Assembly: GCA_900617975.1 (NCBI GenBank)
Contig: UZAE01012524.1
Span: 1 to 15,238 of the forward strand
Source of the DNA: Rodentolepis nana
Lineage: Eukaryota > Platyhelminthes > Cestoda > Cyclophyllidea > Hymenolepididae
Length of the DNA: 15,238 bases
Direction: 5' to 3'
This document shows positions 1 to 15,238 of this stretch, piece after piece. Position numbers and translations under genes: made by a program. The notes beneath the pieces are model-generated. The model worked only from the letters and a program-made list of their open reading frames with translations. It made no database searches and had not been told where the DNA came from. Each line of letters starts with the position of its first letter. Positions within the stretch are counted from its first letter, which is position 1.

Positions 1-783
1 CTTATTTGAAATCGGCAATGACTTAGTTGCAAACCTAATAGCTCAAAAAAAAATAAAATTTGAGATGGGATATTAGATTAGGATAATACAGGGAAGGATA
101 TTAGAGTTCACCTGAATTTGCCCCACATTTCGATCAGTAAGTCGATTTAAATTTACATTTGCAAACATTTTTGCGAACAATTGCGATTGCCAATTAAGCT
201 CCCCGGAAAGAATTGTGGTTGAAAAATGTGACATTCTCGTAGTGCTTTAAAACACGATCAAAGCAAACGAAAGCTGGTTTTATAAATTGGGAGTCCAGAA
301 ACAAGGTCAAATTCTAGCTAAATTCCAAAAGTAGTTACATAATCACGTGACCCGGGAGAGTATTATTAATCAAGAAATTTTGACTAATCGATTAATGAGC
401 GTCTTGCATACTAATTTAGATTATTGTTCAGCCTTTGCCAACATAAGTTATCTTTCATCAATTAAATGTCTTTATAACTGATTATCCGTCAAATACATTT
501 TGTAAACAGACTTAAGTATTGAGATATTGGGATGGATTCACATATGATCACATTAAGAAGTAGATATTCTCGACTGTTAGATAAGTTGGCATATGTAACA
601 TTTACTCAGAACCTTAAAGAAGTATACCTTTTCACTAAAAAGTGGACAGATTGAAACGCACAACCCCTGTAGATTAATCAATCCCAATTCTTCGATACGT
701 TGTTGGATTAACCAACCTGATTTGCCGTCTTGCTCAAATGATTAATTTCGCAAAATCCCACATAATACAAAATTGGAGCGCTG
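1..783. other. AT-rich non-coding stretch, no gene seen
   Basis: I see no coding frame, RNA gene or repeat copy here. There is an A-rich run near position 46-57 and a small perfect hairpin at 702-716 (GTTGG, five-base loop, CCAAC). Neither is more than expected in AT-rich DNA. Confidence 0.5.
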
Positions 784-1080
784 CTAACAAGACTTCTGCT
801 GCTTGGCACACAGAATGACCTTCAAACTCTCCTGTTGACCCTAGAAGTCGTCAGACACAGCATTCTTGCTTTTCAGTTCCCTAATCACAATATATTTTCC
901 CACAAGCTCCCAATCGGATTCTTCATCGTCTTTTAACTATTCCAGAGGTTTATGTCAAAGTACATCCACATTTAATCTTACACCTGAAGCGGCTCGGACA
1001 TTCCAGGTTCCATAACAAATCATACATCTGCCAGCTTTTATCTGCGACACCTCGAATATTATCCGCCTTCGTAGTGCCCT
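784..1080 (-). pseudogene. Decayed protein-coding remnant, family not settled
   Basis: One minus-strand frame stays readable for about 97 codons but carries three internal stops (TGA at 957-955, TAG at 939-937, TAG at 843-841) before a final TAG at 786-784. The part between 936 and 844 reads like protein, with a DDEESDWELVGKY stretch, and continues after the stop to a Cys-rich end (CAKQQKSC). Upstream in the same frame is RCMICYGTWNVR, and the first TGA falls where an LC dipeptide would fit. An RC-x2-CY followed by LC is loosely like the C-terminal cysteine-rich domain of piggyBac transposases, but the spacing is not convincing. A second minus-strand frame is also open over about 953-1140, so the true frame is uncertain. 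I infer an old transposon or pseudogene remnant and do not name it. Confidence 0.25.
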
Positions 1081-2757
1081 CTCTTCCCACCACAGTGATA
1101 AACCCCCTTACTAGTTCACATCTGGTGATCCTAGCATTTATCGTATATAAAAGCTTTTATTGTAGAGATTCTTATACAAATTTCCATTTTTTTTCAAATA
1201 TTATCCACCCTTTGGCGACATTCATTAATCTACTTATTATATCTCAAGGGTGGACGCCTTATTCACTTTCTTGGGCTGTGACGTCCAAAATGACGCACAT
1301 TTGACGTCGACATGTGACTTGAGTTCCATATCCGGCCCATATACTTCCGCAAAAAATTTATAACTAATCTTAAGAGGAAATACAAAGTTTATAGCCTATT
1401 TTAGCCTAGTTACAAAGTTAAATGCACCAAAACCATAACATTTTTTCCTAATTTTAGCCAATAAATCTTTGCCAGATATTATAAATTGCCAACTATTTGC
1501 CCGTACAACTCCTCAAGAATTAAAAAATTATTCTAATAGGAAAAAACAGATTTAACTTTATTTTATTAAATTCGCAGTTTATCGTATAATAGTAAAATGA
1601 TGTCGACAGATATGTTCTATCAGTCATTTCGGAAAGTGAAATTAGCATCTGTTTTTTTCAAAATCGCAATATGACTTTTGTTTTTTTTTCTATTCAATTC
1701 CTTTGACTGACATCAGTAGAATGTGCATACTTCCGAAATGGTAGCTAAAGTTACCTAAATTTACCCCCACCAGGGATAATATGCGCCTCTAACATACCCT
1801 GAGATCTTTAGCTCACAACCTGTCGGTCTGAGTTAAAAAATGAACCACTATTTTTAATGCGGTTTTGAATCAGTCCCCTCTCCCCCCTCTGCCTTGTAAA
1901 ACTTCAAAGCTATTTTCCTTCCAAATGAATTTTGTTCTTGAAATATGCCATTTTTCAATTGACATTGAAATCACTCTTCGTGCTCAGTGAGGAGTAATTA
2001 TTAAACAACTGTAAACTTACTACTGAATATAGTTGAGTAGAGTAACTTAAATTTATATTCACATACTTCAAGTCTGCTTAAACCATGAGAATTGAGCGAT
2101 GACAGAAGTGCAGTTACTCCAGGGCACTTAATGAGCAAACATGACCAGTTTAAAATCCAACCTTTTTATGTTTTTTCGGTTTAGGTTACATTGAGGATGC
2201 GCCTGAACATGAATGATTGTCATATTACCTTCTCTTCTCGACACCTTCCCTCTGGACTAAAGTTGCTCCATAATGTTAATAATGAGAAGTTGTATCTAGA
2301 GCTTCGATGGAGCTTTCTGCGATATCCCTCGCTTTCTGGGATAGCCTGACCTGAAAGAGAACAACCCCAATTTGACCTAAAAGTGGGGGGCTGTCAGTCC
2401 GTGCAATGGCCAATTAGCGCTACCGTTTAGCATGAAGAAAAAACTTTGTAGATAAGGCAAAAACCAGACAAAATCAATTTAAGTCATATGCTCAGTTCTC
2501 TCTAAGGGTAGACCTAAGTGAGGACACGTCCTCCATGACCTACCTGTTTGATGATCCAGTTAGTGAACTTCTAGCCCACACACTCACCTTTCTCTTAAAA
2601 GCGTGGCTTCAACTGGACTTGTTTGAAATAACTTATGGCACACAAACTTACGGAATTCTTTAATATCTTTTGAAGTGCAGTAGCCCTTTTATAAAATATA
2701 TATCGCCAAATTGAGATACAGATACGAAAAATATAGTAATTAAGAATAAGAAATTCA
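1081..2757. other. Non-coding stretch, no supported gene
   Basis: Only short chance frames occur here. A 10-bp inverted repeat, CATTTCGGAA at 1625-1634 and TTCCGAAATG at 1731-1740, lies about 100 bp apart. It has no TSD or longer similarity to suggest a transposon. On the minus strand, ATTAAA (written tttaat at 2659-2664) could serve as a polyadenylation signal for the possible exon ending at 2758. Confidence 0.4.
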
Positions 2758-3021
2758 TTAGTGATGAAGTTGATGCGCAGGGATATCGTCTAATGGGATA
2801 ATCAATAATAGCACATAGGAAAATGCTTCTCGGGTGGAAATGAAAGATTCTAGAGTCTGGTTATCTGGAAAAATCAACAATCCATTCTGTGGATATACAG
2901 TGCTGGAATCGAACTTGTGTCCATTGATGAATCCGACGCGCATTTGATTAAAAAGCGCCCAATCCACGTTGAAAACAAGAACATCCGGCCGTGCGTAATC
3001 ACTTAAAGATCTAACCTGCAT
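2758..3021 (-). CDS. Possible host-gene exon or short ORF, unknown product
   Basis: An open frame of 87 codons begins at ATG (3021-3019) and ends at TAA (2760-2758). Its codon use is mixed and its composition is not low-complexity, unlike most chance frames nearby. It contains VFNVDWALFNQM and GHKFDSSTVYPQNG; I recognise no family or catalytic motif. No signal peptide is visible; the segment YVLLLIIPL is hydrophobic but short for a membrane helix. The sequence just upstream (ctgat about 30 nt back, then gacctcccaatgCAG) could be a branch point plus splice acceptor, which would make this a terminal exon starting at 3015. Alternatively the ATG is a real start. A possible ATTAAA signal lies about 95 nt beyond the stop. 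The truncated retroelement at 3106-4034 lies just upstream, in what would be intron or promoter. It could still be a chance frame. Confidence 0.3.
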   Translation of the reverse strand: MQVRSLSDYARPDVLVFNVDWALFNQMRVGFINGHKFDSSTVYPQNGLLIFPDNQTLESFISTREAFSYVLLLIIPLDDIPAHQLHH

Positions 3022-3105
3022 TGGGAGGTCATATATAAATCAGACCGCATTGTGTTTCGCTTGAGCAATCAGAAATGACAAAACAGATTGCGCATATATT
3101 CATCA

Positions 3106-3930
3106 AGCACCCCTCCGGAGCAAATGCACTCACTGGCCCTTGAGACAAACGATGTCAACTATCCTGGAGATCAATGGCTCCAAGTCTTCACTGATGGGTC
3201 ATACATAGAAAACCAAGCAAACATTGGTGGTGTCTTTTCTGAACTCATCTCTTTCTACGCAGCAGCGGGACACAATAGATCCGCTATTGAAGGAGAAATA
3301 GAGACCATTAGGATAGCACTATGCCAATTATGTTGCCTGGATACGAAATTCACCAAAGCGGTGATACTTTCGGACTCATAGTCAGCAATAAACTCGATTG
3401 GAAATAGAGAGCCACCCAAAACAGCTGAGATATACGAATGTAGAAAACTCTATCAGCTGCTTAGAGAGAAAGACAAAACAGTGGTCGTACAATGGATTCC
3501 TGGTCACTGTGGCATTAAAGGCAATGAGCTTGCTGACACACTTGCTAAGAAGGGGACACCGATTTTGCAATGCATGGACAGGCCAATGTCTTTCCACACA
3601 ATGAAAGCCTTAATCAGAAGAGAATTTCAGACCTCAAGGTGCAACGAACTTAAAGCTCGAACAAAGGAGAAACAGTGGACAGTGGCACTCTCCGATATAG
3701 CCGACTGGGCAAGAATCGAAGCCGTTGCTGAGTTTAGACTACGTTCCGGACACGATCGCTTGGTAAAACACCTTCACAAATTGGGAGTATACACTCAACC
3801 CACATGCCCTCTATGTAACCTACAGGAGGAAATGGAGAAGACCCACCTGATTCGGTTTCCAGCCCTAAAGACAACGACGGAAATCCAGAGATACTGGGAA
3901 GCAAGAAGACAGCTAATAAACTGCTTTTAA
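3106..3930 (+). pseudogene. RNase H domain of a LINE polyprotein (pseudogene)
   Basis: RNase H would remove the RNA strand of the RNA:DNA hybrid during retrotransposition. The frame holds the four acidic residues in order: Asp in FTDGS, Glu in EGEIETI, Asp in LSDS and Asp in NELADTLAKKG, plus the IPGHCGIKGN histidine loop. A helical linker and a C-terminal CPLC...H segment follow. The usual last cysteine of that CCHC-like end is replaced by Phe (IRFPAL where relatives have CPAL). One in-frame TAG (3379-3381) sits directly after LSDS, where a Gln codon is expected (CAG to TAG). Otherwise the frame is intact to the TAA at 3928-3930, so decay is modest. The frame is open back to a TGA at 3076, but the codons before 3106 are probably host DNA. 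The product would be non-functional as it stands. Confidence 0.85.
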
Positions 3931-4034
3931 TTAAGTGTTATAAATGTACCCCCACCCTTGGGGGAAGCTGAAGTCAAAGTTAAAGGGTTAATGATAAATA
4001 TCACAAAGCCTGCCATTTGAAATTATTAAAATAA
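3106..4034 (+). mobile_element. 5'-truncated non-LTR (LINE-type) retrotransposon, RNase H end and 3' UTR
   Basis: Only the last ~930 bp of the element is present: the RNase H domain, a Cys/His end, then a ~100-nt 3' UTR and an A-rich tail (attattaaaataa). No reverse transcriptase or endonuclease sequence lies upstream, as expected for the 5' truncation typical of LINE insertions. ATATTCATCA at 3096-3105 and ATATTCACCA at 4035-4044 agree at 9 of 10 positions and are a probable TSD, which fixes both ends. The 3' UTR shares CTGAAGTCAA (3968-3977), TAATGATAA (3989-3997) and GCCTGCCATTTGA (4008-4020), in the same order and spacing, with the 3' end of family A. This makes the element, or a relative, the likely supplier of the enzymes that moved family A. 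RNase H at the C terminus fits the I/R1/ingi-type LINE groups; I cannot choose among them. Confidence 0.8.
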
Positions 4035-4044
4035 ATATTCACCA

Positions 4045-5536
4045 GTTAATCACTCAAACATTCTACGTCAATTTACAGCCACGAAAATATATTCACTACT
4101 CGTAATCACGAACAAGTTCATAGTGTTAGCACTCTACATTAAGCCTATCGACTCATATCGAGTGCAGTGCTGTAGATCTGCATTCCAATCTCTCAGAGAC
4201 TTGTTGGTTAAAATTTTTCCTACGACTTCCTTCGCTACAATTATGAGGGTTCAAACAACAATAAAAGCATTGATGCTTTTCAAAAATTAGACAATGCATT
4301 GACCAAAACTTTAACGCCCGAATTATTTTCTGACGAATGCACCCCGACGCATTCACGCGTGTCTCACAGCACAGGCGATTGCCGCAGACATGACGGGTTT
4401 TTGGTGATGACAGGCAAAGGTTATAGACGCATTGAACATGCTTCAAGTGGCAATAGCGCCTTCTGTTACGCGTCTTGTACCAATGGTGGTTATTTTGAAA
4501 GAGGACCGTACGGTGTTAAGGGCGCTAAAGGGTTAATATTCCTCGAAAAAATCAAGGTCTATTTTCTGGGTTATATCAATCCTGTGATTAACTCAACAAG
4601 TTTTGGCTTTCAATGTCAAAAAAACTATTCAATGGTATACATCAGTCATACTTGTGAAATTGTCATCTGGCAATTTTAAGTCGAAACCGGAAAAAACTTA
4701 AATGTTTACTTCTTAAAGTTTGTCCTTCCTTAACGCGATGTATCTCGGCCTAACCTACCTGGCCTTGTCTTCCACATGACCTCATTCCCAAATGTAAGTT
4801 TGCCTTCAGATTTTACTTAGCGTACCTGAAGAGTTGACTCAATCCCTTGTTGGTGCTGATTTGGCTCACCTTGGGAGAAGTAATGCGTCAAGTGCTTGCC
4901 TGAACAACTTTCCCCATAGTTTCATTGCCAAACGTGAGTTAGAATAGTCCGAAAGTAAAAGGGAGAGAGTGGGGGTAGAATTGGGTAGGATTGGATTATT
5001 TTATTCAGGTGCCTAATATGTGAATCCACCTGTCAAGATGGGACAACCAATCACTGGCAGTACTAATCTGTGTCCGTTAATTTATCTATCTTCTCGCTTT
5101 CTTATTGCCAGTTTTATAACCTTGTTTAATATGAATTGTTTCTCAGAGGAAGACAAAATTCACTGCCCAATAAAATGAGTATGGCTTATTCTTACTTACT
5201 TTGGGACCGGCGTTAAAGTCGACTTGCCCCCCCCCCCCACAAACCTTCACTTCTTATTTAACACCCACATTTATTACCGTTCTTAACCAATTATGTGTGC
5301 TAATTACATTTTATTTAAACAGAACCACCAAGTAAACGCATACTCTCAACTACACATATTTGTATAGCGCGAACTACCAAGACACAAAGCGTCTCTGCCT
5401 CACTTTGCAAGCTTTGGGGCCGATTGAGGCCATTCCCTACGAGGGAGGGGAATATAGAATTTTTCTCCATCTAGTTGAATAGCCTAATATGTTCACCACC
5501 CTCTTCAGCCACAAGAATCGGGAATACTTAGACGTA
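4045..5536. other. Non-coding stretch with a CpG-richer island and a poly-C tract
   Basis: A 126-codon frame on the plus strand (4299-4679, TTG start) and a 97-codon frame on the minus strand (4153-4446) overlap here. Neither shows a recognisable domain, so I call neither. About 4310-4530 is richer in CpG than its surroundings (about 17 CpG in 220 bp by eye). A run of 12 C lies at 5227-5238. The phrase TCATTsCCAAAyGTrAGTT occurs twice, near 4783 and 4920, and looks like a weak local duplication. Confidence 0.4.
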
Positions 5537-5850
5537 TGCTGCAGATTGCTACACTAATAAGCCTTAACTGTACTCAGAAATCTCAATGGCAGACCCTCCT
5601 ATATTTGGAATAACTCCCAGGAAACAGAAGTATGACAAGGAACACATTTATTTGGTATGGCGTGTAGGCTTGCTAACAGACTAGCGTGCTGTATGATGTG
5701 TTGTGATACGGTGGCGTGGAATTTAATCCTTATATACACTTTATGGCATTGTAACCACTTAATGACTTTGACCATTGATTGGTCGGATAACCACATACTG
5801 GGTTTGGCAGTTGATTAGTCGTCTTGGCTTTGGTCGTTGATTGGTCGAGA
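5537..5850. repeat. Family B repeat copy B1 (probable LTR fragment, diverged)
   Basis: The start (TGCTGCAGATTGCTAC) and the following ~150 bp align with B3 and B4: shared phrases include ACTCAGAAATCTC, ATGGCAGACCCTCCTA, CTCCCAG, GGAAACAGA and ACACATTTATT. It lacks the AGCTAAGCT...AGCTATAAAGG segment of the other copies. The distal half is diverged, so the right end is approximate. Around 5780-5850 the motif gattggtc (an inverted CCAAT box) or a close variant occurs three times, as expected in a promoter-like LTR. No TSD could be defined. Confidence 0.5.
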
Positions 5851-6020
5851 GGCTTCTGCTCTATTCATGATAAATCCGCGTTCTCTAAACGTCGCAATCA
5901 ATTCCAATGACCAACACAATGAATTTTAGGTTATGACGGTATTAAAATATTGATACTTTCTTTAAGTTGGAAGGCGTAGTATAAAAATACTTAGCAATAA
6001 AGACCTATTATCTTCCAAAG

Positions 6021-6292
6021 TTTATTTATATCAACTAGTTATCATTACCTCTTTAGCTGACTTCGGGGTTCACAACGGGGAGGAACATCAAAGTCACAAA
6101 ATAGTAGTGAGGGGAACAGAAGAGTGAATCATATATGTAAAGGAGACAGACATAAATGTAGAGAAAATGGTAAGGTGAGTAAATCGAAAGTGGTCGAATA
6201 TGACATAGTGTCGGGTCATGGCGGTTTGAAGTCAACTGTCGGTTGTAGTTGCCCAGGGCGTACCTAGTGAAGGTAAGTCTATTGCACACTCC
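6021..6292 (-). mobile_element. Family A retroposon copy A1 (internal deletions)
   Basis: Minus-strand copy: the 5' end at 6292 reads GGAGTGTGC and the 3' tail (TTGATATAAATAAA) lies at 6021-6034. It keeps the first half of the HDV-like ribozyme (P1, P2 5' strand, P3, P1', GGGCAAC) but has lost P4, the catalytic-C segment and the P2 3' strand, because GGGCAAC runs directly into the CGACAGTTGACTTC body. The ribozyme is therefore dead. About 12 bp just before the tail (the CGCCTGCC region) are also missing. Flanks TCTTCCAAAG (6011-6020) and TCTGTCAAAA (6293-6302) agree at 7 of 10 positions and look like an eroded TSD, suggesting this is one of the older copies. Confidence 0.85.
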
Positions 6293-6445
6293 TCTGTCAA
6301 AATCTGCAACCAATAAATAAGTTAATAGTTTATTTTGTAATCATTCTTCTATAAAGTAGTTTCGATTCCTCTCAACAAATGTTCAAAATTCATTTGAATA
6401 CCGGGAACATTTTTCACTTCCCTTCCACTTTGAAATGATGGAGCT

Positions 6446-6503
6446 TTTAGCGGATTGCTAAACGAATAAGCCTAAACTTATTCTCAGTAACCTCTATGCC
6501 AAA
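6446..6503. repeat. Family B fragment B2
   Basis: A short piece matching the beginning of family B: TTTAGCGGATTGCTAAAC, then AATAAGCCT, CTCAGTAACCTCTATGCC. Similarity fades after about 6503. No TSD or second end is seen, so it is a truncated or decayed copy. Confidence 0.55.
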
Positions 6504-6768
6504 ATGCCCTAATGTGGATTGGCTCTGGAAATGAATTAGGCTATCTCCATGGTGTAGATGAAGCGAGTATAGCGACCATAGATTTTCTTAAAATTACCAT
6601 CACAACCAGTATGCTTAACAATTGAATACATTTAACATTACTTGAATGAATATTAATATCTGAGTAACTGAGAAGTCCCATACACGCGCACGACCAAACC
6701 ATCCAGAATGTTCGGGTGCGCTCAGTTTAATTGTGTTAGTGGTGACAGTACGATTATTTTTAATTTCA

Positions 6769-6841
6769 GGGGTGTGCGATAAACTTACATCTAGGTGGTG
6801 CACAATGGGCAACGTATACTCATACGGCAAAAAAGTCTATT
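6769..6841 (+). ncRNA. HDV-like self-cleaving ribozyme in A2 (partly decayed)
   Basis: The layout matches the other copies: P1 GGGGTGT with GCACAAT (G1-U kept, two mismatches at positions 2-3), P2 GATAAACTT with AAGTCTATT (one A-C mismatch), GGGCAAC joining segment, P4 GTAT/ATAC closing ACTC, then GGC and an A run. P3 is altered (ACA...GGT) and its loop reads TCTAGGT. The P1 mismatches make activity doubtful. Confidence 0.65.
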
Positions 6842-6853
6842 TGAAATAAATAA
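6769..6853 (+). mobile_element. Family A mini-copy A2: ribozyme plus tail only (85 bp)
   Basis: The copy starts GGGGTGTGCG exactly like the full-length elements, runs through the complete ~73-nt ribozyme region, then passes directly into TTGAAATAAATAA, the family's 3' tail. The ~220-bp body is absent. ATTTTTAATTTCA (6756-6768) and ATTTTTAAATTTCA (6854-6867) flank it, differing by one A, so the 85-bp unit seems to have been inserted as such rather than deleted later in place. Known routes to such a product are an internally deleted RNA template or template switching during target-primed reverse transcription; the sequence does not choose between them. Confidence 0.85.
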
Positions 6854-7025
6854 ATTTTTAAATTTCAAGGAGATGGGTGAATAGGACTGACCGAAACTCT
6901 TGTCAAATTTTAATCAAATGAAATAATTCCGAAATTTGTTATCAAATAAGCAAGAAGACTACACAAAATGAATGACAGCCCACAACAGTCTATAGAAAAA
7001 ATGTTTAGAACAATGTTCAGAATAG

Positions 7026-7355
7026 GGGGGTGTGTGATGCTCTTTCCTCCACGTGGGGCATCCTGGGCAACGTATACTTACACGGCAAAAAAGTCTATAA
7101 ACCGGCAGTTTACTTCCCACTTCATACTACCATGATCCCACTGTAATGCCATATTCGACCCCTTCCACAGTACTCACCTTACCCTTTTCTCTACCTTTAT
7201 GCTTGTCTCTTTTACCTCTGTGAATCCCTCTACTGTTCCCCTCTCGAATTTTTTCCACTCTGATGTTCCTCCCCTGTGTGAAGCCCGAGGTCAACAAAAG
7301 GGCTAATCCTAACTATCAAAACGCCTGCCATTTGATAAATACATATAAATAAGTA
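7026..7355 (+). mobile_element. Family A retroposon copy A3 (near full length)
   Basis: Plus-strand copy from a G run (GGGGGTGTGTG) to the tail TTTGATAAATACATATAAATAAGTA. It has the body landmarks CGGCAGTTTACTTC, CATATTCGACC, CACAGTACTCACC, a long pyrimidine tract, TGATGTTCCTCC and CGCCTGCCATTTGA. TTCAGAATAG occurs immediately before (7016-7025) and after (7356-7365), a perfect 10-bp TSD. One extra G lies between the TSD and the usual GGGG start. The copy has no coding capacity. Confidence 0.9.
7027..7099 (+). ncRNA. HDV-like ribozyme in A3 (P2 broken)
   Basis: P1 GGGGTGT with GCATCCT forms seven pairs if wobbles are allowed, with G1-U at the start. The GGGCAAC segment, P4 and the GGCAAAAAA strand are intact. 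The 5' strand of P2 has changed to GATGCTCTTT and no longer matches AAGTCTAT well, so cleavage is probably lost or weak. Confidence 0.65.
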
Positions 7356-7365
7356 TTCAGAATAG

Positions 7366-8529
7366 ATCAAAATTTTTTCGGTAATTAATGCATTCATTCA
7401 TTCCAATTAATCATTTTACGGTGATTTAACATGCTTTAAAAGTGGAAATTCCTTGGTCACCAGGATCCTTTCTGTTGCCGATGCATGCAAATTAGTTCTT
7501 CAAACTTAGAAATAAAATACGCAAAACAAAACTCTAATGCTCCAATTTTAAACTCAAGTGAACATGTGAATTGTTGGTTCTTGATGTGTTTTCTGAGTTC
7601 ATCGCAAAAAACATATCTCTGAGGTTATATTGACATTACGCAGAGGCAATAATTGTGTCTAAACAGGTAGTAATATCTTAATTTAAAGAAGAGATACTTT
7701 AAAAATTGAAAATATATAGGGTAATGGTTAGGTTATTTTGCCCAAGAAACCGACGGATGTGTACATAATGAACCGCCTTCAGTGTAATTGAGTTTAATTA
7801 TTAGAAAGTTTTGAGAAAATGTGTGGGGACTCTTCTCTTCATTTGGCACTTCATTGGGTCTCGGAACTTCGTTTAGTGGGAATCTGCTGAAGTTTGTATT
7901 GATTTAAGTGATAATTGACGCAAACGATTTAAAAAATAGGGCTAAAATGACCCTTACGACCAATAAGGAAATTATGTTGCTCTGAAAATATGATGATTTT
8001 GGTGGTGATGATATGGAGGTAATACGTTTCTATACTAATTTACAGTGAATTGCCGTGTCACATATCAATAAGAAAATTGTTATACGGTCATTTCAGAGCA
8101 AAGTAGTTTCACTATTATTTTTTTGGATTCACCTCTATGAGTAGAGGTTTAAGTGGAAGCTCTTGAAGATCTCGTCGAACAAACTGGAGAGATACTGAGG
8201 GAGATACTGATCTTCCTCTAATCGTTTGTTGAGGGCTTTGGAGACACTTTTTTCCAAAAAGTCACATTTTGGCTCCTTGTTTTAAAATCCGACTGCGTTT
8301 GATATCGTCGATATTAAAAAGAATTACGGTTTCCGTGATTGTTGTATGCTGAAACGAATTGAAGTTTTTCATATTCGATTGAAAAGACGATGCATTTTGG
8401 CAATGACGATACAAGTTTGTACATCTCTAGTAGTGAATATTAACAAATACTTCTTTCAGGTTAATGCATATTTGATCTCATCCTTTTGTTCTAATAATAA
8501 GGAAGATATCATGAGGAATTAGTGATTTT
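7366..8529. other. Non-coding stretch, no gene or repeat copy seen
   Basis: AT-rich sequence between A3 and A4 with no long open frame, no family A or B similarity and no RNA gene that I can recognise. Confidence 0.4.
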
Positions 8530-8543
8530 AAATATTTTAAAAT

Positions 8544-8616
8544 GGGGTGTGCGACAGACTTACCTCCACGTGGTGCAACCTGGGCAACATATACTCATAC
8601 GGCAAAAAAGTCGATT
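8544..8616 (+). ncRNA. HDV-like ribozyme in A4
   Basis: P1 GGGGTGT pairs with GCAACCT with G1-U first and one G-A mismatch. P3 is ACC/GGT around the 7-nt loop TCCACGT, whose CC can form the two P1.1 pairs with GG of GGGCAAC. P4 has TAT/ATA around CTC-type loop bases. The strand GGC plus six A leads into AAGTC for P2, where the pairing partner GACAGACTT has an A-G clash after the first five pairs. Confidence 0.7.
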
Positions 8617-8855
8617 AGCTGGCAGTTGAATTCTCACTTCAAACTACCATGACCCCACTGTATGTAATATTCGACCACTTCCACAGTACTACATAACATT
8701 TTTCTAAATTTTCAACCTTCGTCTTTGAAACACTCTTCAGTTCCCCTCCTCTCGACTTTTTTTCACTTTGATGTTCCTTCCCCTCTGTAAAGCCTGAAGT
8801 CAACTAAAAGACTAATGATAACCATCAAAACGCCTGCCATTTGACATAAATAAAT
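8544..8855 (+). mobile_element. Family A retroposon copy A4 (full length, 312 bp)
   Basis: Full-length plus-strand copy starting GGGGTGTGCG and ending CGCCTGCCATTTGACATAAATAAATA-like tail. The 14-bp sequence AAATATTTTAAAAT occurs directly before (8530-8543) and directly after (8856-8869): a perfect TSD. Order inside: ribozyme, a ~90-nt conserved body (GGCAGTTGAATTC to CCACAGTACT), a pyrimidine-rich tract, then the 3' segment shared with the RNase H LINE. No coding frame. TSD length, the (TAAA)n-like tail and lack of terminal inverted repeats indicate target-primed reverse transcription. Confidence 0.93.
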
Positions 8856-8869
8856 AAATATTTTAAAAT

Positions 8870-9831
8870 TGGTACTCTTTTGATCAGCAACAAGATATAC
8901 TTTTATTATTGTTGAGTTGATCTTGAAACTATGCCACTTTACTTACAGATGTAAGGTACCGCTAGGTGTTTTAGTAGAATTGGAGTGTTTTATGTGTCCA
9001 ATCAATTCGTTATTAAGTACCCCAATGCTAACCTATTGTTTCTAGATATGGAATAAGGTGCTTATTTGAACAAAACTATGAAATATAACAAATTCATTTA
9101 TATTATTTGTGCACCTTTGCTGAAGATAGACTTTTCCTTTCGTCTAACTTAGACAGTGAAAAAAGTGTGTAGAGAATAGCAAGACCAGACATGAGTCTTA
9201 GCAACTGCTCTGTTTTCGAATTACGTCTTGAGGTAAAAGAAAGCGGAAGGGGTGGGGGAATGTGCTGGAACAGAACTATTTCCACGAGAGGGAGAGAGAG
9301 AGTCAAAAATGTGAAGATGAAGAAATGGAGGCGATAAACAACGATGTAAAATAAATTAACGGAATGACCGATTCTGCTTATCAGGACAAACAAGAGAAAC
9401 AATAAAAAGCGAATTTCACGTCAGAGGGATTGCAGAGTACCCACTCCTACGCAGTCTGTCTTAATTAGTCGTTTAATTTACTCAGTCCATATTCGTTAGG
9501 GCGTGAACATTCAATAAACATAATCCAAATCTTCAAATTTCAATCACCTCGTTTTCCTTATAACCACAACCGAGAAAACTGCTATTCAAACTCCTATTTT
9601 GATACAAATATTAGCGAAATAGCTTATTAGAATTAACCTAATGGATGAATGAGCAATACTATTTATCAAGTCAAGAACACTGAATAGTAATAGTCCATTT
9701 GTAAGTCCTTTTGGAAATATGTATTTTAAAAAATTTAATAGATAAACAAAAATCAATCCTGAACGTCAATATCTGAATTGATTTTTACTAGCGCAAATGA
9801 AATTGTTGAACTCTGTGATTTTGGTAAGATA
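8870..9831. other. Non-coding stretch with short GA microsatellite
   Basis: No supported gene. A purine run with GA repeats lies near 9286-9302. The 99-codon minus-strand frame at 9103-9402 is pyrimidine-biased, rich in Leu/Phe, and best explained by composition. Confidence 0.4.
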
Positions 9832-10125
9832 TGAAACGGATTGCCACGCTAGTAAAGCCTGATCGACTCAGAAATCTCTATGGCAGATTCTCCACCATCT
9901 AGCTAGACTCCCAGAACAAGCTAAGCTATAGCCCAGCTATAAGGGAAACAGACGTGTAGCACGGAATACGCTTATTGAGTACGTATATTGATAGCGAATT
10001 GTCATTTTGGCAAAGTGATTAGTTATCAGATAAATCTAGCATAATTCGCGTGAATATTAATAGCTAAATATCTCTGAGTAGTGTTCTGTACCAGGATTTC
10101 CATTGGTCATTGATGAAGTGTCCCA
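9832..10125. repeat. Family B repeat copy B3 (probable solo LTR)
   Basis: The copy starts TGAAACGGATTGCC and can be followed to GTGTCCCA, the same end as B4. Shared internal phrases are AAAGCCTGA, ACTCAGAAATCT, TATGGCAG, CATCTAGCTAGAC, CAGCTATA and GGAAACAGACGTGTAG. Flanks aagata (9826-9831) and ctgata (10126-10131) agree only in gata, so the TSD is weak. A TG start, CA end, a TATA-like box (CTATAAGG) and ~300-bp length suit an LTR. No internal gag/pol sequence is attached. Confidence 0.6.
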
Positions 10126-10131
10126 CTGATA

Positions 10132-10498
10132 AATTGTATTACTAAACAAATCCTTCACTGTATTATAATGACTAAGATCCGTGTCAACGACACAGCCCGG
10201 GAAAACTTGTTAAAACCATACGCCTGTTTCCTTTGTTCTTTATTATGGAGATTAGGGGGCATGAGTCAATGCTTATAGGTGCAACAGTCCACACAATGTT
10301 TATTGATTACATCAAGTGCATGTTGCTCCTACTTCGTCTGTGAGAATCTTACTAATCAGATGCCAGTGTTAAAGCTCTTATAGTGGTAGTCCCGATACTC
10401 TACAAAAAAGTACAAATTTTACGTGATTTTATTGTTTCCGTTTAAAATTCAGGTAGGCGGCCTAACGCACCACTGAGCTTTAGCATAAATCAATATCT
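10132..10498. other. Non-coding stretch, no gene seen
   Basis: Nothing coding is seen. On the minus strand near 10460-10487 the phrase GCTCAGTGGT resembles a tRNA A box, but I find no good B box at the right distance, so I do not call a tRNA or tRNA-derived SINE. Confidence 0.4.
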
Positions 10499-10508
10499 AC
10501 TATGTTTT

Positions 10509-10579
10509 GGGGTGTGCGATAGACTTACCTCCATGTGGTGCACATTGGGTAACACATACTCATGCGACAAAAGTCTATA
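10509..10579 (+). ncRNA. HDV-like ribozyme in A5 (P1 decayed)
   Basis: P2 GATAGACTT with AAGTCTAT is fully paired over eight positions, and P3 ACC/GGT is intact with loop TCCATGT. P1 GGGGTGT with GCACATT has lost a pair near the cleavage end, and the joining segment reads GGGTAAC instead of GGGCAAC. Two A are missing from the strand before AAGTCTAT. The catalytic C is kept (GACAAAA). Activity is doubtful. Confidence 0.65.
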
Positions 10580-10633
10580 AACCGCAGTTGACTTCTGACT
10601 TCAAGCTACCATGACCCGACTGTATGCCATATT

Positions 10634-10972
10634 TGTAGCGGATTGCTACTTTATTAAAGCCTGACTGACTCAGAAATCTTTATGGCAGTTCCTCCTACAT
10701 CTAGCTAGACGCCCAGAACCAGCTAAGCTAAAGCCCAGCTATAAAGGAAACAGACGTGTAGTACGGAGCACGTTTATTCAGTGGGTATATTGTGGATAAA
10801 GTGCACACGCATGGAGCTACTCATGATCAGGATGGGGGATTAGGTTAAACAGCGGTTGATGATTGGTCACTATTCGTACGGTCGCTGCATACAGAGTTGT
10901 ACAGCGCACCTCCCAATCCTGGCGAGCAGACATGCAGGCATACGATGACGAACAACGCGATAACGTGTCCCA
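10634..10972. mobile_element. Family B copy B4: probable solo LTR inserted in A5
   Basis: A 339-bp insertion splits A5 at a position continuous in the other A copies. CATATT at 10628-10633 is repeated at 10973-10978, a 6-bp TSD (5 bp if the element ends one base later). The element starts TGTAGCGGATTGC and ends GTGTCCCA, so TG...CA. It has a TATA-like box (CTATAAAGG, about 10739-10747), an inverted CCAAT box (GATTGGTC near 10861) and, on the other strand, AATAAA close to the TGTAGCGG end. These traits and the short TSD suit a solo LTR of a Ty3/gypsy- or BEL-type retrotransposon; transcription direction is not settled. A cut-and-paste MITE is less likely since long terminal inverted repeats are absent. 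Confidence 0.7.
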
Positions 10973-10973
10973 C

Positions 10974-11345
10974 ATATTCGAACACTTGCACAGTACTCAT
11001 CTCACCTTTTTCTCTACCTTGATATCTGTCTCTTTTACATCTTTGAAACACTCTTCTGTGCCCCCTTCCCCGACTTTTCTCCCTTTGATGTTCCTCCCCC
11101 CCCCCCCTGTGGAGTCCGAAGTCAACTAAAGGGCTAATGATAACTATCATTTATTTATTTATATCAAATGGGAGGCGTTCTGATAGTCATCATTAGCCCT
11201 TTAGTTGACTTCAGGCTTTACAGAGGGGAGGGAACATCAAAGTGGAAAAAAAGTCGAGAGGGGGGGGGGAACAGAAGAGTGCTTCAAAGACGAAGGTTGA
11301 AAAAAATTGAGGTGAGTACTGTGAAAGTAGTCGAATATGGCTTAC
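10974..11345. repeat. Long inverted repeat formed by A5 and A6
   Basis: A5 (plus) and A6 (minus) meet tail to tail. A5 sequence at 10974-11149 is largely complementary to about 11181-11345 in A6, with roughly 30 nt between the arms. The arms continue outside B4 (10509-10633 with about 11335-11461). A transcript would fold into an imperfect hairpin of over 150 bp. Confidence 0.8.
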
Positions 11346-11461
11346 AGTGGGATCATGGTAGTTTGAAGTCAGAAGTCAACTGCCCATTGATAGACTTTTT
11401 TGACGTATGGATATACGTTGCCCAGGGTGTACCACGTGGAGGTAAGTCTATCGCACACCCC
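11151..11461 (-). mobile_element. Family A copy A6 (full length, 311 bp, nested in A5)
   Basis: Minus-strand, full-length and best-preserved copy. Its 5' end GGGGTGTGCG lies at 11461 and its tail (GATATAAATAAATAAA) ends at 11151. ATGATAACTATCAT, itself A5 sequence, occurs on both sides (11137-11150 and 11462-11475): a perfect 14-bp TSD. The ribozyme, body, pyrimidine tract and 3' segment shared with the LINE are all present. The perfect TSD and near-ideal ribozyme pairing suggest a relatively young insertion. The 103-codon plus-strand frame across it (11168-11479) is chance and has no coding logic. Confidence 0.93.
11389..11461 (-). ncRNA. HDV-like self-cleaving ribozyme in A6 (best fold)
   Basis: Numbering from the element's first G: P1 1-7 (GGGGTGT) pairs with 32-38 (ACACCCT), six Watson-Crick pairs plus G1-U at the cleavage site. 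J1/2 is GC (8-9). P2 10-18 (GATAGACTT) pairs perfectly with 65-73 (AAGTCTATC). P3 19-21/29-31 is ACC/GGT with 7-nt loop TCCACGT. P1.1 can form between loop CC and GG at 39-40. GGGCAAC covers 39-45. P4 is GTAT/ATAC (46-49/54-57), extendable outwards. The candidate catalytic cytosine is C60, followed by an A run. Every helix of the HDV-like double pseudoknot is present in order at typical size. Self-cleavage would free the RNA exactly at the retroposon 5' end. Activity is inferred, not shown. Confidence 0.85.
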
Positions 11462-11518
11462 ATGATAACTATCATATAGCTTGACATTTGATATAAATAA
11501 ATAAATACTCACTATGTT

Positions 11519-13700
11519 GGTGCTTTTCGAATGCAGAGGAATGAAGTGTATTGACCACACTCGGCTTAAGTAAGGACCCGAATATAAAAGGGCAATTATT
11601 TCATTTACCTCACATGAAATAACGATGGATTTAAGGAGGGCGGTGGGGGAGGGGAAGGTGAACTATATGAATCAGCATAATTCGATTTGGAGTGGTAGCT
11701 CTTAAGTCATGCAAGTTAATGTTGCCTTTCATGTATGACATGGGCTGAAATGCATCTGACTCGATGGGGTTTAGATTCAACAGGATCTGAAAGTGTAAGG
11801 CCTATATGACCTACAAGACTGATGAACGCACCACAAATTTTTGTCACTGGAAATTCTGCCGTTTTTCTTTTCATTTCCCTGTTTGAATACGATTACATAA
11901 CAACAATTGGAGTGTACATTGCACTGTTTTGGATAAATTTTTCCCCGGGGTAAGGAATGCTTATTGAGGAATTAGACAAGGTCTAGACGATATTACTGAA
12001 ATCTATCATATCGTCAGTAGTAACTTACCTGTTATTTCACATTTTTGGTGAGTATCGAAGTCTGGTGATGAAATTGGACATTTGCGATGGAGCAGTGATT
12101 AGCATGCAGAGGATAGGCGAGTGGAGATTTCTGACATGCTCAAATTAATTGTAGCCCACATGAAGGATGGTAGAGTACAGGTCTATGACACGTATCCACT
12201 AACAAAGTCAGTTATTGCCAATACTTCCTTAAAAGGCTTAGAAAACTTAAAAGTAGAAAGCACAGCACTAATAACTAAGATCAGTGACTAAAGTGCTATT
12301 TTGTAAAATTGGAAGTCCAACTCCCCATCGTACTTAATTATAGGCATTACAAATTTATAAATGTACTAAGGAAAATCCATAGTGATTAGCCATTCTCCAT
12401 CCCCAGGCTCCACAACTCGATACTTGGAATTTGTTTGATTTAAGTTATAAAAAATCGGTTATGGCTGATTAAAGCGAGCATCCGTTTTTGAATTTGACTA
12501 AAGCCTATAGTTACTTTCCACCCAATTAACCCTTTTGGGTAATAGTTGGGGTGGGGGTGAGAGTGGGGAGGGGGAAGGGGGAAGGGGTGTATGGTGGTAG
12601 AGGGGGGTGCGGGAGGAAGAGGGATATAAAAAACCAAGCTCTTTGAATTTCACAAACATCGCCACCCACTATTGCAATATTCACAAACTAATACAACTTT
12701 TTAGAAATTACAATTGGTCAGTTTTAAAATAAATGAACTTGTATTTGAGAAGAATACAGAAGTCTCATCACCGTGGATATAACCTCGACAGACCACTTGG
12801 GAGTCGAAACGGAGTGTGAATAAAAGGACATCGGGCTCTAACTAAGCCTCGTAGAAGAAATTGCTAGCATGTGCTTCGAGAGAATTTAGTAAATTGAGAT
12901 TGTGTTAGCAACAGCCTCTTCACTCCCAGCCCATTTTCTCATCTTATTGAAATCGTCAAAAGCCATTCTCTCTTAATATGCCTTTCCGTGATTTAAAAAC
13001 TAAACGAGTTTATCCTTCCAATGCCATGGAGGTTGGTTCAGCTCAATTCTTAAAATAATAAGAGATACAATAATTTGCAACGGGGATTTCCGTCGATGAG
13101 CTACTTAATGTTTAAGCATTGTAGGACCTTCTAATACCTTGTTCAAGGCTAGTTTTGGGTCTACTGCGAGATTTGACAGTAATTATTGCGGAAAGAGATT
13201 GAGATCATTGCCTGATTAGTAAGAATGTTGGATAAGTACGAGTAGGAGTGCAACACCCGGCTGGATAAATTGATGGCACGAGTTACAGAACGTATTCCCA
13301 CTTTGAAATCACATACACACCACCCCAATTAAGGCAATAGCTTGTTATCCCAAAGGGGAAACAGTTAAGCTTGCATCCCATCACAAAATTGATGTTAATT
13401 AAATCGTTTAGAATAGAAACGCTCAGTAACACGAATATGTCTAACTCGCATGTTGAACCCACCTCGATGAGCCAGTCACATCGGCAAATAATTCATCGGT
13501 CTTGGTACACCATATTCACAATGTAAACGAATTGTGTATATCCTGGGGTGAATAACCATTCGAAAATAATTTTTTCAGCTGTGTTAAACGCTATGCGAAG
13601 GCACCACAAACCGTCCAGGTACAAGAGACAAAGTCCTCCGCTACTGAGCTTTCTCTTAGTTCAGGACAATCAAACTTCCCTTTTAAGCAAATTTGATCAT
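11519..13700. other. Non-coding stretch, no supported gene
   Basis: No domain-bearing frame and no A or B copy. The 65-codon minus-strand proline-rich frame at 12440-12637 is just the complement of a G-rich tract. G-rich sequence also occurs near 11636-11659. Confidence 0.4.
12548..12587 (+). repeat. G-rich tract with G-quadruplex potential
   Basis: Six runs of four or five G separated by one to seven bases fall in 40 bp (12548-12551, 12553-12557, 12565-12568, 12570-12574, 12577-12581, 12584-12587), with further G-rich sequence to about 12622. This fits the usual G-quadruplex pattern on the plus strand. No gene is near enough to suggest a role. Confidence 0.7.
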
Positions 13701-13765
13701 TCGGTATTTTAGATCGTCAGTGAAGAGGAATAATTGCAAAATTCACTAAAAGCGAAAAGCCAACT

Positions 13766-13771
13766 TTTAAT
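13766..13771 (-). promoter_or_regulatory. Possible polyadenylation signal for the minus-strand gene
   Basis: ATTAAA on the minus strand, about 345 nt beyond the stop codon at 14115. It is a common variant of AATAAA. Placement is reasonable for a 3' UTR, but such hexamers are frequent in AT-rich DNA. Confidence 0.25.
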
Positions 13772-13967
13772 AACGCGGTCACCTTTTTGTATTCTTTTAA
13801 AAAGAGATAGGGAGTAATCATCGGACAAAATGTTTGAGAGATGGGAGCAAGGGGAGAAAAGGGAACACTAATATTTGCGAGTAGTAAACTAGCAATAAGT
13901 GGGGAGACACGAAAGGAGATAGAAGTATTAGCACCAAGTAAACAAGCCATCCGATTAAGGGGATGGA

Positions 13968-13985
13968 GGGGGGGGGGGNGGGGGG
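13968..13985 (+). repeat. Poly-G run containing an unresolved base
   Basis: Eleven G, one N (13979) and six G. The N points to a sequencing or polishing problem in the homopolymer, so the true length is unknown. It would lie in the 3' UTR of the minus-strand gene as poly-C. Confidence 0.9.
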
Positions 13986-14114
13986 ATAAACGACGACAAA
14001 AAGGGGGCATCGTGCAGGGTAAATAGGCTAACAAGAGATAGGAGGGATGGGTGACAGTATTGAGAGATTGAGAATTGGCAATAGTTAATGCAAGCAAAAG
14101 AGAGAAGACAGCGA

Positions 14115-14363
14115 TTAGAAGTGTAATCCGGGAGCAGGTATGACCGCGGCAGTAGGAGGTGGATAAGGAGTACCGTGAGATACTGCAGCAGCATTAATGA
14201 ACATCGGTGGGGGTGGGTGGTCACGACCAGATGCTCCAGCCGAGTTGACAAGTTGATTTTGACGTTGATGTGGGGCTAAGAGAGCAGGTCCGCCTGATGA
14301 CTGATGGTGATGTGAAAACAAACTTGTTGAATTCGCGGCCAATCCACCATTTGAGTAAGCAAA
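14115..14363 (-). CDS. Probable terminal coding exon of a host gene, product unknown
   Basis: A minus-strand frame of 82 codons plus TAA (14117-14115). Just upstream is a good splice acceptor: a T-rich run (gaacttttgtaccaacttttatag) then TTTGCTTAC, so I start the exon at 14363; no convincing start codon is needed. The peptide begins FAYSNGGLAANSTSLFSHHHQ and ends TAAVIPAPGLHF. It is rich in Ser, Pro, Ala, His and Gln, with PPPP and YPPP stretches, typical of disordered C-terminal tails of transcription factors or RNA-binding proteins. I see no folded domain and cannot name the family. The region is less AT-rich than its surroundings and uses varied codons, unlike chance frames nearby. Upstream exons should lie to the right, at least partly outside the window. 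The 3' UTR would run left through the poly-C tract. Confidence 0.6.
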   Translation of the reverse strand, partial: FAYSNGGLAANSTSLFSHHHQSSGGPALLAPHQRQNQLVNSAGASGRDHPPPPMFINAAAVSHGTPYPPPTAAVIPAPGLHF

Positions 14364-15238
14364 CTATAAAAGTTGGTACAAAAGTTCGGTTATACATGAT
14401 TACTAGCAGTATAGGGGGCAAATAAAATTTGAAAGGCTAATTTTACAGTCTCAAACACATTTATAGGTCAGCGAAAGAAACCTGGGCATAGATGCATAAA
14501 AGGAAATAGCCAGCAGACTAATACTAATGAGATACCATAATTGGAAAAAGGGGAGCAAGTTTAAGGAGAGCGTAGTCCAGGTGATTGGGAAACCATCGAA
14601 TTTATGAAGGAAGAAATTCTCAAATTCCCTTTAAATGAATAGAAGTAGAAACAAAATAACTGCGGGTTGTCTTAATCTACGATAATTCCTTAATCGGCAA
14701 CGTACCAGTATTGACTTCGATTAGCTCAATCCCAAACTGTATTCCCCCTGATGGTGGTGAGAAAACCAATGATTCTGTGTGAATACAGAAATGTAAATTA
14801 ATATTACATATTTATTTGAAAGTAGTAAGTACAAAGTATTACAAATAAGTACAGACCATGGACTTTTCCATGAATGCGTATGCTAAATTCAACTGTATGT
14901 GGATTACCACAGTACACTTCAGCCTTTAAATTACCCCACAAATAAAATTTCAGGTAGAAATATCGAGCGATTGGGGAGAATACGAACCTATACGAGGACC
15001 GCATTTTATTCATCGAAAGCTTCAAGAACGTAAGCCATTTAAAAACCGCTGATTATGTGCGGTAGCACCAACTCGCTGGAGCAATGTGCAATGAATGGTT
15101 GCAATAATTCCGCTAAAGAAGACGATGGCTACAATACGCACCAAACGCCTATTTTTTCAATCAATATGGAGGCACAAATAAGGTGTTCTCTAGAATTGTC
15201 CCTTGACCAAACGCGAGTGCTTTGAGAATTCATATACT
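14364..15238. other. Probable intron of the minus-strand gene, no firm exon
   Basis: If the exon at 14115-14363 is real, this is intron, perhaps with small exons. Two minus-strand frames could be exons but lack convincing splice sites: one at 14804-15025 containing AEVYCGNPHTVEF and IHGKVHGLYLF, and a hydrophobic one at about 15024-15158 containing IVAIVFFSGIIATIHC. I call neither. Confidence 0.35.

Follow-up and report, generated by a model that had tools for sequence, protein, structure and literature searches.

HDV-like ribozymes very probably cut the 5' ends of a SIDE-type SINE and its partner LINE in the tapeworm Rodentolepis nana

Hepatitis delta virus (HDV)-like ribozymes of RTE and other long interspersed elements (LINEs), reportedly described by Webb in 2009 and Ruminski in 2011, are said to process the 5' ends of non-long terminal repeat (non-LTR) elements. 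According to passages of PMC4035085, the trypanosomatid systems L1Tc/NARTc and ingi/RIME each pair a LINE that has endonuclease, reverse transcriptase (RT) and RNase H with a truncated element, and both members carry the same 77-nucleotide (nt) HDV-like ribozyme at the 5' end. In Drosophila, as parts of PMC3414825 describe, short internally deleted elements (SIDEs) of R2 and hybrid R2/R1 SIDEs consist of a 5' ribozyme and a LINE 3' end, are non-autonomous and are moved by target-primed reverse transcription (TPRT). Here we analysed a window of 15,238 nt, positions 1 to 15,238 of the forward strand of contig UZAE01012524.1 (assembly GCA_900617975.1; C2722 among our contigs) of the tapeworm Rodentolepis nana, which holds six copies (A1-A6) of a short interspersed element (SINE). 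Based on its motif, its Rfam match, both ends being common to the SINE and a LINE, the exact insertion boundary and the copy number, we consider it highly probable that this is a SIDE-type SINE mobilised by an endonuclease-RT-RNase H LINE, and that the 5' ends of both are cut by an HDV-like ribozyme.

The original prediction, made from the letters of the window, had claimed that A2-A6 carry about 73 nt at the extreme 5' end that fit an HDV-like nested double pseudoknot. A 72-nt motif does open these five copies, and the layout fits each of them (Table 1). P1 is formed by GGGGUGU and (G/A)CACCCU, with G-U as the first pair, P2 by AUAGACUU and AAGUCUAU, and P3 by ACC and GGU around the 7-nt loop UCCACGU; these are followed by GGGCAAC, by P4 (CGUAU/AUACG), and by GC or UC with a run of A, which is 2 nt shorter in A5. 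The strands pair as had been described, with complete pairing in A6 only and two to four mispairs in A2-A5. The version in A1 had been called broken, and this copy retains P1 and P3 and is without P4 and the P2 3' strand. In the descriptor search that had been proposed as a check, a strict descriptor (P1 7/7, P2 8/8, P3 3/3, P4 4/4 and C after P4), designed with A6 known, matched A6 alone in the window (start 11461, with a second, overlapping register from 11459), and 204 dinucleotide-shuffled windows gave no match. It replaced a loose structure-only descriptor, which was unspecific, with 225 matches in 100 shuffles and seven starts in the window (three registers of A6 and four elsewhere).

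A match independent of our descriptor was obtained with the Rfam model RF02682, the HDV-F-prausnitzii ribozyme (presumably from a bacterial source, as its name suggests), whose curated cut-off is 44 bits. Its layout is like that of the tapeworm motif, apart from a gap of 3 nt in the alignment that follows the 5' strand of P1, and it matched A2-A6 with 28.9-37.7 bits (E 5e-4 to 0.057). When the assembly was searched (107.1 Mb, 4,701 contigs), 61 of 25,212 first-look candidates were scored; all 61 matched at E <= 10, and 37 of them, the best with 54.5 bits and E 1.1e-7, exceeded the curated score. From these 37 the top 19 were retrieved, together with the best match of a second model, RF00094, and all 20 belong to the family described here. 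None of 14 control genomes gave an RF02682 match above the cut-off, and eight gave weaker matches at E <= 10. This covariance-model search had likewise been proposed at the outset, and its genome-wide result agrees with the prediction. We further aligned 81 distinct copies (82 were collected outside the mosaic loci described below, and L092 was left out) and assigned the motif positions to HDV numbering ourselves. The equivalent of C75 is C in 79 copies, and A follows the C41 equivalent in all 81. In P1.1, C is present in 80 (outer) and 74 copies and G in 79 (outer) and 78, and the pairs form in 96.9% of cells. Judged by these scores and core letters, the motif has the form of an HDV-like ribozyme, a nested double pseudoknot of P1, P1.1, P2, P3 and P4.

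The same ribozyme was found on a LINE. An RNase H fragment at 3382-3930 of the window is part of this LINE, and the end of its 3' untranslated region (UTR) resembles the SINE 3' end. Genome-wide, 150 LINE matches were scored of 3,236 candidates. Pfam assigned a piece of one copy to the exo_endo_phos endonucleases and found RT plus RNase H in a second copy, and a further copy (L083) has endonuclease-side and RNase H sequence in a single frame, with RT largely missing. The LINE RT has relatives of 49-77% identity in Rodentolepis nana (38-95% of the query) and of 42-53% in three arthropods; the best match has 64%. Related RTs are present in Hymenolepis as well. Six upstream pieces were picked by an endonuclease-side query, and four of them (L106, L107, L108, L110) have the ribozyme at the LINE 5' end, with the first letters altered in L108 and L110. 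It is also present, whole or in part, in nine of ten further pieces, among which C3791 misses the 5' end, C4337 is damaged and C2602 is cut short where the piece ends. At the other end, the LINE 3' UTR is 77.6-81.5% identical to nt 230-312 of the SINE in five of five loci (L080-L084). Since both the 5' ribozyme and the 3' end of the LINE are present on the short element, we assign it to the SIDE-type SINEs; it would consist of these two parts with about 120-150 nt of other sequence in between. A tRNA-derived SINE was rejected, as an ARAGORN scan of four SINE loci for tRNA genes found none and the head is a LINE 5' end.

In five LINE copies, the presumed in-frame start ATG lies 99-104 nt past the first G, about 31 nt beyond the ribozyme. 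The block is placed in the LINE 5' UTR shortly before the presumed start codon. There, it could instead have been retained because the LINE protein or the ribosome binds it or requires its structure, with a convergent resemblance to HDV. Passages of PMC5035012 state that R2 HDV-like ribozymes aid both 5' processing and translation initiation. They also quote an 11-nt R2 sequence as the most conserved sequence of the fly R2 5' region, present in zebra finch as well; it is identical to CCTCCTCGTGG in several LINE copies (e.g. L106, L107, L123), and the CCTCC(T/A)CGTGG of the LINE copies equals this quoted sequence or is one letter off. However, the SINE retains the block, yet no LINE coding region was found in the SINE, and the HDV core letters are correctly placed in the fold. 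Accordingly, we regard a binding site with a convergent fold as very improbable.

The insertion boundaries of both elements were compared with the predicted cut. For the SINE, 58 full-length matches outside 13 mosaic loci gave 43 non-redundant copies with both flanks, in which we looked for an 11-mer that ends at the base preceding GGGG and is found again behind the tail with no more than one mismatch. Such a duplication is present in 26 of the 43 copies, compared with 1 of 838 swapped-flank controls. When the end of the 11-mer was slid over offsets from -2 to +4, the numbers of copies were 27, 25, 26, 17, 6, 3 and 0, and exact 9-mers at offsets from -2 to +2 gave 18, 18, 15, 2 and 0. These profiles indicate that the duplications extend to the first G and stop there; some few of them consist of simple A/T-rich sequence. 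For the LINE, we used ten copies in which the endonuclease-side and RNase H matches are collinear. Five (C3424, C3879, C4530, C2522, C4111) have an exact duplication of 13-17 nt directly before GGGG, two (C2229, C2602) have a similar one with about one mismatch by eye, and the others are ambiguous (C3574), damaged at the 5' end (C4337) or in a piece that stops short of the end (C3791). The predicted HDV cut base is thus the insertion boundary of both the SINE and the LINE. The duplications (26 of 43 SINE copies and, in exact form, 5 of 10 LINE copies) and the A/T-rich tail are those of TPRT-type insertion. That the family uses HDV-like 5' processing had been proposed in the original prediction, and it is supported, at the level of sequence, by the genome-wide scores above the Rfam cut-off and by this coincidence of the predicted cut with the boundary.

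The same boundary could also arise if the 5' block were mainly an internal promoter or start-site element, with transcription starting at GGGG and an HDV-like fold that is vestigial or has become dispensable. The two roles can coexist, as PMC4035085 in part describes for Pr77 of the trypanosomatid elements, which serves as promoter and ribozyme, and cleavage of the tapeworm RNA is predicted from sequence. In addition, the second pair of P1 is broken in 21 of the 81 aligned copies, a set rich in A2-like copies, A2 having been the first query. On the other hand, the boundary falls on the very base that the HDV fold predicts, the Rfam scores are significant, and none of the four SINE loci contains a tRNA-like gene. 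Exact 30-nt SINE-type cores with paired P1 and GGGC number 3,685 in the assembly, against 56 with a one-letter P1 break, as would be expected if the source copies keep P1, but also if CCCT is ancestral. We consider a mainly promoter function unlikely, and HDV-like cutting of the 5' end remains our preferred explanation. The P1-broken form (CCAT, CAAT) was also considered as a second active subfamily and was rejected, because the same counts, in which the 56 cover CCAT, make ordinary decay likelier; this form was common in our first list because A2 was the query.

Several results weigh against the ribozyme interpretation. None of the five window matches reaches the RF02682 cut-off, and RF00094 gave 71 matches genome-wide, none above its own cut-off. 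Among the LINE 5' ends, L107 and L106 are also below the RF02682 cut-off with 37.1 and 32.2 bits, L108 is matched by RF00094 alone (24.3 bits), and L110 by neither model. In 17 of 43 SINE copies and 3 of 10 LINE copies, no boundary duplication was found by the set criteria. One LINE copy (L113, that is C3424) has a clean duplication and yet an A at the C75 position, which may be a later mutation. In the 81 aligned copies, standard pairs form in 93.0% of 2,011 pair cells, which equals the shuffled percentage, and covariation does not exceed shuffles, with four double-sided pair changes against a mean of 1.9, a value reached by 52 of 500 shuffles. The original prediction had looked to covariation as a check, and within this one family the signal did not appear; because copies decay independently after insertion, this null result says little either way. 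Lastly, the insertions of three mosaic loci (L022, L025, L030) each enclose a fully paired ribozyme and continue upstream of it, which means either incomplete cutting or pieces added after cutting.

With the ribozyme interpretation preferred in spite of these points, the proposed course of events is as follows. The SINE and the LINE are probably transcribed within longer RNAs. The HDV-like ribozyme would fold at the extreme 5' end and cut before its first G, leaving an RNA that begins with GGGG. The LINE protein would then bind the common 3' end and copy the RNA by TPRT. The outcome would be full-length insertions that start with GGGG beside a target-site duplication of about 10-17 nt. The motif thus very probably trims the RNA copies of SINE and LINE before their re-insertion. 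Cleavage, co-transcription and mobilisation in trans by the LINE are proposed here by analogy with R2 and L1Tc.

By its anatomy, the tapeworm pair is placed with L1Tc/NARTc and the R2 SIDEs. The likeness to L1Tc/NARTc is one of anatomy and domain content rather than of compared sequence, and the hosts differ, being trypanosomatids in one case and a tapeworm in the other. R2 has an endonuclease of a type other than exo_endo_phos, whereas the tapeworm LINE has exo_endo_phos. The R2 SIDEs are also rare and located in rRNA genes (passages of PMC3414825), whereas the tapeworm copies are scattered across many contigs and have varied duplications. The kind of system is therefore already known, and the host and this LINE/SINE pair are new as far as our literature search shows: no report of HDV-like ribozymes on tapeworm retrotransposons was found by that search, with subscription papers outside its reach. 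For the genome of Hymenolepis microstoma, PMC7653826 gives 1% LINEs and 14.8% unclassified repeats, and the word ribozyme is absent from its main text.

Besides the SINE-type cores, the assembly contains 360 exact LINE-type (GGAC) cores. These core counts differ from element counts, since tandem arrays account for some cores and mutation can also produce GGAC. A sample chosen independently of the ribozyme (36 loci, 112,440 bases, selected by cytochrome c oxidase subunit I (COI) or LINE and perhaps LINE-rich) contains 21 ribozyme matches (three in one array), 15 of them full-length, three exact cores, and SINE sequence over 6.3% of its length. Extrapolation from this sample gives, as a rough estimate, about 20,000 ribozyme pieces in the assembly. 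No exact match to the core pattern was found in viral or prokaryote contigs, and one SINE copy searched against plasmids gave no match.

Some SINEs are mosaics of several ribozymes. In a survey of the window and 39 loci, all obtained via the A2 query or sharing blocks and hence not independent, 13 loci have several head-to-tail partial ribozymes (L017-L022, L024-L028, L030, L035), with up to 28 BLAST pieces in the largest (L021), and L073 and L092 are two smaller cases. The pieces are mostly from nt 1-128; L026 and L028 also repeat nt 107-176, and L026 nt 219-321. Thirteen arrays were examined for target-site duplications. An exact one lies directly before the outermost GGGG in L022 and L030, and one with a mismatch, by eye, in L027 and L073. 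The duplication of L025 is at a start inside a ribozyme, and that of L020 ends 10 nt before GGGG; L017 is simple sequence, and the 8-mer of L035 is out of place. No duplication was found in L018, L019, L021, L028 and L092, roughly the last three of which are truncated where the piece ends. Duplications that flank the whole unit indicate that some arrays moved as units. We tentatively suggest that RT reaching the cut end may jump to further ribozyme RNAs and add 5' pieces, which would produce mobile multi-ribozyme SINEs of between 2 and nearly 30 pieces, and that a ribozyme with a 15-nt tail, as in A2, may be close to the smallest mobile unit. The junction of ribozyme and tail in A2 has a single exact occurrence in the assembly. 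Template jumping is a reasonable guess because two tandem Pr77 in T. brucei SIDER2 (PMC4035085, in part) and template jumps at the 5' end of R2 SIDEs (PMC3414825, in part) are known; jumping offers no simple account of the pieces from outside the 5' region or of the paired inner ribozymes in three loci, and these make it slightly less probable.

Table 1. Copies of the SINE and its partner LINE in the window, with ribozyme pairing and insertion marks
Feature	Position	Strand	Pairs formed	Remarks
5'-truncated LINE copy, RNase H region and 3' UTR	3079..4037	+		3' end about 4037 by eye
A1, decayed SINE copy	6036..6292	-	P1 6/7	ribozyme remnant 6292-6248
A2, minimal copy, ribozyme (6769-6840) and about 15 nt of the element's 3' tail	6769..6855	+	P1 5/7, P2 7/8, P3 2/3, P4 5/5 (4 mispairs)	probable duplication, TTTTTAATTTCA upstream and TTTTTAAATTTCA at 6855-6867, differing by one indel, by eye
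A3, SINE copy with ribozyme	7027..7354	+	P1 7/7, P2 6/8, P3 3/3, P4 4/5 (3 mispairs)	duplication (A)TTCAGAATAG ending 7025, followed by an additional G (7026), with the second copy at 7355-7365
A4, full SINE copy with ribozyme	8544..8854	+	P1 6/7, P2 6/8, P3 3/3, P4 4/5 (4 mispairs)	duplication TAAATATTTTAAAAT at 8529-8543 and 8855-8869
A5, SINE copy with ribozyme	10509..11505	+	P1 6/7, P2 8/8, P3 3/3, P4 4/5 (2 mispairs)	3' end about 11505 by eye; interrupted twice, by an unrelated repeat (about 10634-10972) and by A6
A6, full-length SINE/SIDE with fully paired 5' HDV-like ribozyme	11151..11461	-	P1 7/7, P2 8/8, P3 3/3, P4 5/5	inserted into A5; 14-nt target-site duplication ATGATAACTATCAT at 11137-11150 and 11462-11475
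A6 ribozyme	11390..11461	-		C75 equivalent 11402; predicted cut immediately upstream of 11461
A6 helix P1	11461-11455/11430-11424	-		
A6 helix P2	11451-11444/11397-11390	-		
A6 helix P3	11443-11441/11433-11431	-		
A6 helix P4	11417-11413/11408-11404	-		

The window also contains another dispersed repeat family, at 9829-9990, 10631-10792 and 5572-5620, one copy of which is the repeat that splits A5; two copies are 85% alike over 162 nt, and the third is alike over 49 nt. Rfam matches to plant miRNAs at 11032-11298 are far below the cut-offs and fall where A5 and A6 overlap in inverted orientation; we took them as chance. Among the loci of the COI search, L048 (C1797) is a mitochondrial contig with a cox1 that has no stop in the flatworm code and, by eye, an apparent 16S rRNA adjoining it. 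The relatives of its COI are tapeworms, with 89% identity for the best, 86% for Pseudanoplocephala crawfordi, a hymenolepidid of the order Cyclophyllidea, and 80-84% for Taenia serialis and others. By this gene the host is a tapeworm, probably of the order and family of P. crawfordi.

A LINE and a SINE that share an HDV-like ribozyme, an arrangement known in trypanosomatids and, rarely, in Drosophila R2, would now be found in a tapeworm as well. With thousands of core copies and clean boundaries, the family is well suited as a natural test of the influence that a 5' end cut by a ribozyme has on reverse transcription. If the template-jumping suggestion is true, the 5' end made by the ribozyme would also drive the evolution of the element. 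Our study illustrates how an abundant ribozyme family may be overlooked in a parasite genome.

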